Below, piece by piece: positions 34,329-53,616 of a DNA stretch of 64,000 nt (the stretch's first letter is position 1; each line of letters starts with the position of its first letter). The DNA lies in contig NZ_DATIND010000091.1 in NCBI RefSeq assembly GCF_035474595.1, positions 62,001 through 126,000 on the forward strand, given 5' to 3'. The notes beneath the pieces were generated by a model that saw nothing but the letters and a program-made list of their open reading frames with translations, was not told where the DNA came from and searched no databases. Origin of the DNA: Longimicrobium sp. GTDB taxonomy: Bacteria; Gemmatimonadota; Gemmatimonadetes; Longimicrobiales; Longimicrobiaceae. Position numbers and translations under genes: made by a program.

Positions 34329-34431
34329 CAATCCATCCTTCGTCTCAAGAATCTTTAAAGACAACGACAACTTCAACGGATACAGCGGGATGCGGGCGTG
34401 TCCCCCACACAGGTGCGCCTCCGCGGCCTCG

Positions 34432-34617
34432 CGCCGCCCTCACCCCGCGCCGGAGGGCGCGACCCTCTCCCGTCCCGGGAGAGGGTGGCGATCCAGCATC
34501 GGCGCCAGCAAGAACCCTCGCTCACGCCGATGCTGGCCCGAAGCGTGGATGCCACCGAACTACCTCTCCCGGTACGGGAGAGGTGGACGGCCTAAGCCGG
34601 CCGGAGAGGGCGCGATG
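34432..34617 (+). mobile_element. MITE-like derivative of the DUF559 element (about 186 bp, no gene)
   Basis: The left end (34432-34500) shows CGCCCTC, a palindrome CCCTCTCCCG-TCC-CGGGAGAGGG and GCAT C after it, in the same order as the left end of the full element. The right end (34561-34617) differs from the full element's right end by very few bases. About 70 bp lie between them and there is no ORF. It sits between prmC and the YlbF-like gene and fills the 320-bp gap. Confidence 0.8.
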
Positions 34618-34648
34618 CCGCGAGCGCCGCGTCGATGCGCCCCCGCGA

Positions 34649-36973: not shown

Positions 36974-37174
36974 GCCGCACCTGCCTCAAGATCGGTTTTC
37001 GGCAATCGAATCCGGGCGCAGCCGCCCGGCCGCTTTGCGCTAAGGAAGCCTGAAGTATAGCCAAACCGCGCGGTTCGGGCAACCCGCGGCGGGCCGGCCG
37101 AACCGTGCGAGACGAGCATCATCTCAGGCTGCATGTTTGATACACCGCTAGCGAGGTTCGGTGCGCGGCCGCAG

Positions 37175-37852
37175 CATCGCGCCCTCTCCGGCCGGCCTAG
37201 GCCGTCCACCTCTCCCGTACCGGGAGAGGTAGCTAGGCAGCATCCGCGCTCGCGGAACGCTGTGGTGCATTCCACATCCGCGCGTCGGCATCTGTGCGCT
37301 TTGTTGCGGTGCCGCGCGTGGGCCTGCGGACGAACCGGACTGTAAAGTTGCGGGTTTCTACGCCTCATCCCCCGAACGAGGAGGACGTGTGCAACAGCAA
37401 CGCCGGATGCGCGGAACGACGCCGGAGATTGAAGAGCGCGCCAAGGAGCTGCGCGCGAACATGACGATTCCGGAGCGGGTGCTCTGGAGCGCGCTGCGGA
37501 AGGAGCGGCAGAACGGTCTTCACTTTCGTCGGCAGCACCCGGTCGAACGCTTCATCGTAGACTTCTGCTGCACCTCGAAGAAGCTGTGCATCGAGGTGGA
37601 CGGCCCCATCCACGACGAGCAGCAGGAGCGCGACTCCGCGCGAACGGAGTATCTCGAAGCCCTCGGCTTCCGCGTGCTGCGCTTCACGAACGACGAGGTG
37701 ATGAACGCGCTACACCTCGTGGTCAGGCGAATCCAGGCCGCGCTAGCCGAGCCAGGCTGACCGGGGCGCCGTCAACCAGCAGGATGGCGCCAAGCTACCT
37801 CTCCCGGTACGGGAGAGGTGGACGGCCTAAGCCGGCCGGAGAGGGCGCGATG
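37175..37852 (+). mobile_element. 678-bp element with 57-bp terminal inverted repeats and a single DUF559 nuclease gene
   Basis: The left end 37175-37231 and right end 37796-37852 are reverse complements over 57 bp with one mismatch, and weaker similarity continues about 14 bp inward. Each end carries a palindrome TACCTCTCCC/GGGAGAGGT around the inner boundary and GGCCGG...GAGAGGGCGCGATG outside. Between them lies only the DUF559 ORF. Related ends without the gene occur at 34432-34617, 53392-53580 and 39917-39973. No direct target-site duplication is obvious. Confidence 0.85.
37389..37760 (+). CDS. DUF559 (Vsr-like, PD-(D/E)xK) endonuclease-domain protein
   Basis: 123 residues. The DUF559 domain belongs to the Vsr/restriction-endonuclease-like fold. 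The sequence shows the family blocks MTIPERVLWSALRKERQ, FRRQHPVERFIVDFCC, KKLCIEVDGPIHD and LGFRVLRFTNDEVM. Catalytic candidates are Asp58, Glu69 and Asp71 (D-x10-E-x-D). AGGAGG at 37379-37384 supports GTG 37389. It is the only gene inside a unit with long terminal inverted repeats, which suggests it acts on those ends. Confidence 0.9.
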   Translation: MQQQRRMRGTTPEIEERAKELRANMTIPERVLWSALRKERQNGLHFRRQHPVERFIVDFCCTSKKLCIEVDGPIHDEQQERDSARTEYLEALGFRVLRFTNDEVMNALHLVVRRIQAALAEPG

Positions 37853-37934
37853 CCGGACGGCCGCGTCGAAGTCCATCCAGCACGGCCGTTTCCGTGTCGA
37901 TCTTTCTCGACGGACGAATCTGGCCGTCGCGCCC

Positions 37935-39811: not shown

Positions 39812-39916
39812 TCCACGAGGCGCAAAGTTCCGTGCTGCCGTGAGTTCTCCCCTCTCCGCGGAGGAGTCCAGCCGGGCGGGCACAAGGCAGCCCCCGAGCA
39901 CCAATCCCGCCCGGGC

Positions 39917-39973
39917 TACCTCTCCCGGTACGGGAGAGATGGACGGCCCGAGCCGGCCGGAGAGGGCGCGATG
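39917..39973 (+). repeat. Solitary end of the DUF559 element family
   Basis: It matches the right end 37796-37852 with a few substitutions (GAGATGG for GAGGTGG, CCCGAG for CCTAAG). No partner end is found within a few hundred bases. Confidence 0.85.
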
Positions 39974-40036
39974 CCGGATGGGCGAGCAGGATTCCGCCCC
40001 GCGCTGTGTCGCACCCGGCGTCGCCGCCGACGCCGC

Positions 40037-43162: not shown

Positions 43163-43370
43163 GTCTGCTCGCGAGTTGTCGTGGGGATTCGCCGCAATGT
43201 AGGCGGGCAAGGCGGCCCCGGGCAACCGCTTCAGGGGAGATTCTTCCCGGGCCTGCTTCCCCGGCCTGCTTCCACAGTCTGCTTCGTCACCGGATGCAGC
43301 GGTGGTGAGCTCGGGCGCAGGCTCGGGCTTGCGCTCGAGTCCGGGCCGACTCGGCTCCGGGCCTGGGAAG

Positions 43371-43432
43371 GCGAATGAATTCGCGGCAACAACAGCACAA
43401 AGTCCCTTCGGGACTGCAACCTCGGCATCCTG
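43371..43432 (+). repeat. REP-like element, copy E (left flank of RAYT)
   Basis: GCGAATGAATTCGCGG, CAACAAC, then the hairpin AGTCC-CTTC-GGGACT. It starts right after the transposase stop on the minus strand. Confidence 0.88.
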
Positions 43433-43435
43433 CTG

Positions 43436-43876
43436 TCAGCCCAACGGTTTTGCTTCCGCTGGTTCGGCTGGGGGAGGTTCGAGGAGCGGCCAGAGGCGCT
43501 GGTCCCGATGATGTTCCTCCTGGCGGAGGATGTAGTCGGTGATGAGCGGCACATGGCGTTTCGAGACACTGAATGCGCCGTAGCCCCCTTGCCACCGGAA
43601 GGTCTTGTAGATGCCGGTTGAATGATTCACCGCGTGCGCGGACGAGCCCTTCACCTGCTTGACGAGCATCGCCGGAGCAATCGTAGGCGGAACACGCACG
43701 AGGAGATGCACGTGGTCCTCCATGCCCCCGATCGCCAGCACGTCCGCGCGCAGCCGGGTGCAATCCGCCTGAATCAGGTCATACACCTCCGACCGAACCG
43801 GCTCGACCAGGAGCGGCGCCCGCTGCCAGGTAGCCCAGACGAGATGCAGGTAAAGCTGTGTCCATGGACTGCGCAT
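43436..43876 (-). CDS. REP-associated tyrosine transposase (IS200/Y1_Tnp family)
   Basis: 146 residues. The HUH motif DHVHLLV has His55 and His57, and the catalytic tyrosine is Tyr115 in DYILRQEEHH. These are the residues needed for single-strand DNA cleavage at REP hairpins. All core residues are present, so it may be active. The start is ATG 43876. It is flanked by inverted REPs within 3-30 bp of the gene. Confidence 0.93.
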   Translation of the reverse strand: MRSPWTQLYLHLVWATWQRAPLLVEPVRSEVYDLIQADCTRLRADVLAIGGMEDHVHLLVRVPPTIAPAMLVKQVKGSSAHAVNHSTGIYKTFRWQGGYGAFSVSKRHVPLITDYILRQEEHHRDQRLWPLLEPPPAEPAEAKPLG

Positions 43877-43905
43877 CGTTCACACGGAAGCGGGTGAAAC
43901 GGCAG

Positions 43906-43973
43906 GAAGCATGGAAGCAGTCCCGAAGGGACTTCGTGCAGTTGTTGCCGCGAATTTATTCGCCTTTCCCAGC
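43906..43973 (-). repeat. REP-like element, copy F (right flank of RAYT, inverted)
   Basis: On the minus strand: GGCGAATAAATTCGCGG, CAACAACTGCAC, then AGTCC-CTTC-GGGACT. It differs from copy E by a few bases. Confidence 0.88.
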
Positions 43974-53391: not shown

Positions 53392-53580
53392 CGCCGCCCT
53401 CTCCCCGCGCCTTGGAGCGCTCGCCCTCTCCCGTACCGGGCGAGGGGGCTATCCACGCGGTGGCGCATCCTGCGAGCTCTGCTCACTCCCAGGCTTCGGT
53501 CGTGCCGGTGATGCCCGTACAGCTACCTCTCCCGGTACGGGAGAGGTGGACGGCCTCGGCCGGCCGGAGAGGGCGCGAGG
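53392..53580 (+). mobile_element. MITE-like derivative of the DUF559 element (about 189 bp, no gene)
   Basis: It starts with CGCCGCCCTCTCCCCGCGCC like the 34.4-kb copy, has a left palindrome CCCTCTCCCGTACCGGGCGAGGG, about 70 bp of unique DNA, and a right end 53524-53580 close to 37796-37852. It lies upstream of the ars cassette. Confidence 0.8.
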
Positions 53581-53616
53581 CGCCGGACGCGCACTTCCGC
53601 ACTTCTCTCCCGGGTA

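Follow-up and report, generated by a model that had tools for sequence, protein, structure and literature searches.

Inverted PIT repeats around a single DUF559 nuclease gene: a probable minimal mobile element in Longimicrobium with relatives across bacteria

The window, by which we mean the whole stretch of 64,000 nucleotides of Longimicrobium sp. DNA under analysis, carries a DUF559 gene between two inverted repeats of the PIT type. Ends and gene together probably constitute a minimal autonomous mobile element of RAYT/REP-like organization, whose single nuclease has the fold of Vsr and the EDxHD homing endonucleases. Structured gene-less derivatives with the same end have spread in genomes carrying the gene, and the mobility of the DUF559 unit is well supported.

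The left end (37174..37245, plus strand) and the right end (37782..37853, minus strand) are A-type PIT arms and inverted copies of each other, with 94% identity over 72 nt. The first-pass annotation had described ends of 57 bp with one mismatch; these do differ at one position, and the repeats are slightly longer. The left end consists of a third-strand block CCCTCTCC (37182-37189), a spacer (37190-37208) and a hairpin CCTCTCCC-GTACC-GGGAGAGG (37209-37229); its DNA fold has a z-score of -3.06, and both arms follow the triplex rule perfectly (16/16). The arms enclose a single gene (37389..37760, plus strand, start codon GTG), which is indeed a DUF559 gene, as first read, and codes for a putative Vsr-like PD-(D/E)XK nuclease of 123 aa (PF04480, E=1.4e-39). 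Inverted alignment of the flanks of this gene gave a score of 132, compared with a mean of 25 and a maximum of 92 for other placements in the same 19 kb. The maximum belongs to an IS200-like/RAYT unit located 6 kb from the DUF559 unit (43363-43972), a classical REPtron-like arrangement in which inverted repeats of 74 bp (43363-43436 and 43899-43972) surround a Y1_Tnp gene of the RAYT type (43436-43876, minus strand, 146 aa). The spacer at 37190-37208 is itself a near direct repeat, GACGGCC-TAA-GCCGGCC; the corresponding repeat in the relative G008 (arms at L068) reads GGCGAGCC-TAA-GCGAGCC, both sides having changed together with respect to the window's genome (G000).

PIT elements reportedly go back to Hoyne in 2000. 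Arms of the present type follow a common plan, in which an outer pyrimidine block is followed by a spacer and by a hairpin whose purine strand could accept the outer block as a third strand; the triplex rule held at 14/16 or better in 64 of 80 arms and in 2 of 210 random stretches. Judged by their sequence, the ends correspond to the intrastrand triplex (PIT) motif of Holder et al. (2015; PMC4666352), which occurs in >260 bacterial genomes and in 23 copies in E. coli K-12, inverted A+B pairs among them. Both share the hairpin CCCTCTCCC/GGGAGAGGG with its mirror block, and the inverted A+B pairs of E. coli resemble the gene-less units described below. What differs is that the motif here forms the ends of a DUF559 unit and has longer spacers in several families, whereas the survey of Holder et al. 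found no mobility genes near the motif (PMC4666352). Triplex formation was demonstrated in vitro for the E. coli motif (PMC4666352) and is predicted for the window-type arms with their longer spacers.

Relatives of the ends that lack the gene had been noticed elsewhere in the window, and we find them at three places. Seven occurrences of the hairpin core were counted in the window, where 0.2 are expected. A first gene-less A/B unit pairs a divergent B-type arm (34412..34505, plus strand) with an A-type arm (34542..34631, minus strand) that is 89% identical to the left end, the cores lying 99 bp apart; a second pairs a B-type arm (53395..53451, plus strand) with an A-type arm (53521..53594, minus strand) that is 93% identical to the left end, at a core-to-core distance of 101 bp. 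A solo A-type arm (39915..39984, minus strand) is 93% identical to the ends of the DUF559 unit. Across the genome, which contains 283 PIT hairpins, the window arm has at least 48 matches, the best 40 of 183 candidates having been scored. The dispersed copies are often paired with a divergent inverted partner, mostly 97-101 bp away and invariably on the inner, never on the outer side. A second stand-alone DUF559 gene of the same genome, 48% identical to the window protein, is also located between inverted repeats (87 nt, 88.5%); these belong to a different sequence family, with about 30 dispersed copies of its own. At a third gene (L005), which is of the Vsr type, lies near a methyltransferase-like ORF and served as internal negative control, no such inverted repeats were found. 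Gene-less copies thus follow their cognate DUF559 gene, two genes being accompanied by two separate dispersed families.

Association of DUF559 genes with inverted ends was then examined in 99 relatives. About 38 strong stand-alone DUF559 genes were present in the window's family, and 40 loci were read. The 500-bp flanks were aligned in inverted orientation and the best alignment was scored; a score of at least 50 was reached at 35 of the 40 DUF559 loci, compared with 7 of 3,211 control placements of gene size within these loci. The association in related genomes, a check named beforehand, is therefore strong, and random genes do not have such ends beside them equally often. The seven control matches trace to three sites. 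One of these is the IS200-like/RAYT unit of the window; since it encloses a Y1_Tnp gene, the test also picks up the known type of palindrome-flanked transposase. As separate observations, the segments L079:13912-14931 and L094:15830-16790 are gene-sized, lie between long inverted repeats of unrelated sequence, and contain a 275-aa ORF (probably DUF72, by eye) and a GreA-like ORF. Among the negatives of the test are L101, where the domain is truncated, and L104, where it lies within a frame of 1,667 aa; recognizable ends were absent from a few loci (L080, L101 and L115 in the inverted-repeat test, as well as L167 and L173).

PIT hairpins are concentrated in the window's family: 3,177 were counted in 21 family genomes (203 with a control pattern), compared with 304 in 78 genomes of sister families (263 with the control pattern). 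Among family genomes that are at least 90% complete, the PIT excess was 12-471 with the gene and 2-3 without it (p=0.003), so that complete genomes of the family that lack a DUF559 gene show no more than background numbers. Over all 21 family genomes, PIT count and gene presence are correlated with a rho of 0.78, a value free of phylogenetic correction. Palindromic terminators or REP-like repeats might surround a stand-alone gene by chance, and PIT-like repeats are abundant enough in the window's genome for this to be considered; such an ordinary background is, however, refuted by the placement test (35/40 versus 7/3,211) and by the cross-phylum test given below, and does not fit the background-level counts in relatives without the gene, which makes it a most improbable account.

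The relation between gene and repeat is also specific. Against the G000 end, the copies found in G000 give matches of 93-100%, and against the G008 end matches of 82-96%; those in G008 match G008's own end better, and G001, which lacks the window's element, has 0-6 weak matches. Arms of one element have a similarity of 0.83 and arms of different elements one of 0.40, so that both ends of an element evolve in concert as the elements drift apart. Arm similarity and protein identity are correlated (Mantel, 1/2000), and every DUF559 gene has its own arm variant. G129, a genome of another family, has a single strong DUF559 gene and no more than two PIT hairpins, one on either side of that gene; this two-hairpin element (G129:C273:3297-3810, L169) looks like a founder that has not yet produced gene-less copies. 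Conversely, 27 and 8 PIT hairpins were present without a strong DUF559 match in G112 and G118, possibly as orphan families.

These data bear on the main biological rival, according to which DUF559 is cargo, by chance the passenger with the greatest success and perhaps kept for defence, and PITs are moved by other trans-acting machinery such as replication slippage, an HUH transposase or recombination. The orphan families of G112 and G118 would suit it, as would the lack of strand-transfer activity in a hydrolytic nuclease and the presence of an IS200-like/RAYT unit in the same window. Yet no other gene recurs between the ends, and one PIT variant per DUF559 gene, the Mantel result, the copy numbers that track the gene and the G129 element all fit an enzyme-substrate relation. 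We therefore regard the cargo explanation as unlikely.

That gene and ends move as a discrete unit, as the first-pass annotation had proposed in calling it a small mobile element, is indicated by filled and empty sites. In G008, a DUF559 element sits between two operon genes; the homologous flanks (89% identical) are 26 bp apart in G000 and 622 bp apart in G008. The element is also absent from this junction in G002, G004, G006 and G009, and diverged relatives are found there in G001 and G005. The plasmid pPg_02 of Pseudanabaena galeata (L160:3844-4447) carries a complete DUF559-PIT element of 604 bp in frame within a gene for a BREX PglX/Eco57I-like methyltransferase, shortly ahead of motif I. 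Homology with the intact methyltransferase of Aulosira laxa ends at residue 320 and restarts at residue 526, the element covering codons 323-523. In Synechocystis B12 (L157), a methyltransferase-like frame is interrupted by another DUF559, here shortly behind motif I. On three Deinococcus plasmids (L110, L158 and L159), the DUF559 gene occupies different junctions of the same hpa operon, and junctions filled in one species have compact or overlapping genes in other species. DUF559 units were further observed between the transhydrogenase (pnt) subunit genes of Sphingomonas parapaucimobilis (L118) and inside a paa operon of Deinococcus psychrotolerans (L116). With the filled and empty sites, none of the three outcomes that had been named beforehand as refuting was observed.

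The rpmE-ferritin intergenic region (L123-L130) is an insertion hot spot: the window's element is present there in G000 and G008 and absent in G001, while G004 has a gene-less PIT pair and G002 and G007 have other PITs, these regions being too diverged for placement of the junctions. A search with the flanks of the S. meliloti element returned relatives that had diverged before the element. The comparisons of filled and empty sites are made at genus level or between species, with draft genomes and with junctions that are mostly not base-precise. Target-site duplications were not detectable, the length of flank match being 3.88 as against 3.75 ± 0.17 after permutation. A classical IS or MITE mobilized by a DDE transposase was considered as a class for the unit and rejected on this point.

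The association extends far beyond the family. Twenty-five loci from Cyanobacteria, Deinococcota, Chloroflexota, SAR324 and Alpha-, Beta- and Gammaproteobacteria contained 82 PITs within 600 bp of DUF559 (63 when the repetitive locus L105 is left out) in 30 kb, compared with 27 elsewhere in 196 kb; 21 loci were enriched and one was depleted (p=1e-5). The palindromic ends of the earlier reading thus hold, in a form refined to PIT motifs, and their association with DUF559 is pan-bacterial instead of local. In a more distant class the DUF559 ends are other palindromes, e.g. CCCCCTTT-AAAGGGGG-GGGGGGATTTA. Ends of the forms TCCCCTCT-GAGAGGGG and CCCCCTTT-AAAGGGGG-TTA-GGGGGGATTTA were seen in G108 and G099 (L166, L168, L172 and L175), which suggests further repeat families with the same DUF559 partner.

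In E. coli, three PITs lie directly downstream of the DUF559 gene ycjD (L117, between sapF and fabI); as with the Azospirillum genes, PITs are found on one side only. This arrangement is present in about 3,361 of 5,426 genomes, and ycjD is conserved in E. coli phylogroups A/B1/C (PMC12817139). As a clean empty site this locus was rejected: in strains lacking ycjD, its place is taken by an efflux operon of the eef type, eefRABCD (PMC12817139), which means replacement. The conservation of ycjD, together with the action of the Caulobacter DUF559 protein VsrA in a pathway of DNA damage that is connected with cytosine methylation (PMC12907096), lends some credit to the proposal that DUF559 is a domesticated repair nuclease of the host which processes PIT triplexes or mismatches, the PITs being autoregulatory sites or terminators. 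This would leave unexplained the gene-specific end variants, the symmetric co-evolving ends, the insertions into operons and methyltransferase genes and the patchy distribution, and we consider it quite improbable.

The window protein has PF04480 (DUF559) as its only Pfam match. The residues Asp58, Glu69 and Asp71, which had been named as intact candidate catalytic residues, do not vary in an alignment of 52 DUF559 proteins, and the same holds for W33, Q49, G72, H75, D82, R85 and R98. An AlphaFold model (pLDDT 85.5) matched, in Foldseek, the Neisseria DUF559 protein 3hrl, the homing endonuclease I-Bth0305I (3r3p) and Vsr (1cw0, E=1.9e-3), and profile searches gave 3hrl (2.6e-31), 3r3p (1.4e-4) and a PADLOC homing endonuclease (1.1e-5). 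The fold and profile matches and the invariant residues D58, E69, D71 and H75 agree with an EDxHD/Vsr-like nuclease. The nearest characterized relatives are I-Bth0305I, which has the same fold and is 31% identical in the catalytic domain, and Vsr, which shares the PD-(D/E)XK Vsr fold; unlike Vsr genes, the DUF559 gene of the window does not adjoin a dcm-type methyltransferase gene. EDxHD homing endonucleases, which use a two-metal hydrolytic mechanism (PMC3943268), are likewise lone nucleases with selfish spread and in-frame insertion within conserved genes. The DUF559 unit differs from them in its small protein of 123 aa without extra DNA-binding domains, in its location outside introns and inteins, in its inverted-repeat boundaries and in spawning gene-less copies.

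With RAYT/REP systems (REPIN, REPtron, TnpA_REP) the unit shares the layout: a single small gene enclosed by palindromic repeats in inverted orientation, many dispersed gene-less paired derivatives of fixed arrangement, cognate pairing of gene and repeat variants, and no target duplications. The analogy to RAYT/REP with an unrelated enzyme, drawn at first sight of the sequence, is upheld, since a Vsr-like PD-(D/E)XK nuclease takes the place of the HUH/Y1 transposase; no gene for the latter was found in the DUF559 unit, and the Y1_Tnp gene of the window is a separate unit with its own ends. A further difference is the third-strand block, which makes the DUF559 ends triplex motifs. Tags at the foot of the repeat were not enriched, a RAYT-type GTAG being present in 10 of 72 arms (reversed control, 11) and CGTC in 19 arms (reversed control, 38).

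From the cognacy of gene and repeat, the concerted evolution of the ends and the homing-nuclease fold we infer that the nuclease acts on its own palindromic ends. It would recognize its own PIT in folded form, as hairpin or as triplex, probably where the DNA is single-stranded or supercoiled, and would nick or cut at the foot of the folded PIT. Because a hydrolytic nuclease alone cannot join strands, host repair must be assumed, which would fill the break with a copy either of the unit or of a shorter A/B derivative; such copying could account for spread without target duplications and would keep both ends of each element identical. The main mechanistic rival is RAYT-like strand excision ("peel and paste"), in which DUF559 nicks folded single-stranded PITs at replication forks and the excised strand is reinserted, i.e. 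by transposition instead of repair homing. Hairpin ends, inverted A/B mini-units and the lack of target duplications parallel IS200/IS605 elements and REPINs, but PD-(D/E)XK enzymes form no covalent DNA intermediate and the nearest relatives of the protein are homing and mismatch-repair nucleases; this route is conceivable, though we find it doubtful.

PIT repeats have been known for some 25 years in E. coli and hundreds of other bacteria, to our knowledge with neither an enzyme nor an explanation of why they spread. Our results suggest that DUF559 provides the enzyme for a class of tiny mobile elements that is widespread and had previously not been assigned. Such elements are likely to be the source of the PIT repeat, known in bacteria since about 2000. 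On balance we lean towards the broader view that DUF559 proteins mobilize a whole superfamily of palindromic, triplex-forming repeats throughout the bacteria. This superfamily would include the E. coli PITs, with YcjD as a decayed or domesticated partner, and together with its enzymes would represent a new transposable class combining a homing-type hydrolytic nuclease with a folded DNA end. Literature searches for DUF559 with palindromic or inverted repeats, which covered few subscription papers, returned nothing relevant, and an earlier description is possible. If true, the finding would give a role to DUF559, a very common nuclease of 'unknown function', and an engine to the PIT repeats, and the RAYT/REP lifestyle would have a second solution, based on an unrelated enzyme. 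Possibly it would also account for the fact that PIT repeats mark unstable loci and that the DUF559 protein VsrA damages Caulobacter DNA upon loss of methylation, and the question would become testable in laboratory E. coli, which has both ycjD and 23 PITs.
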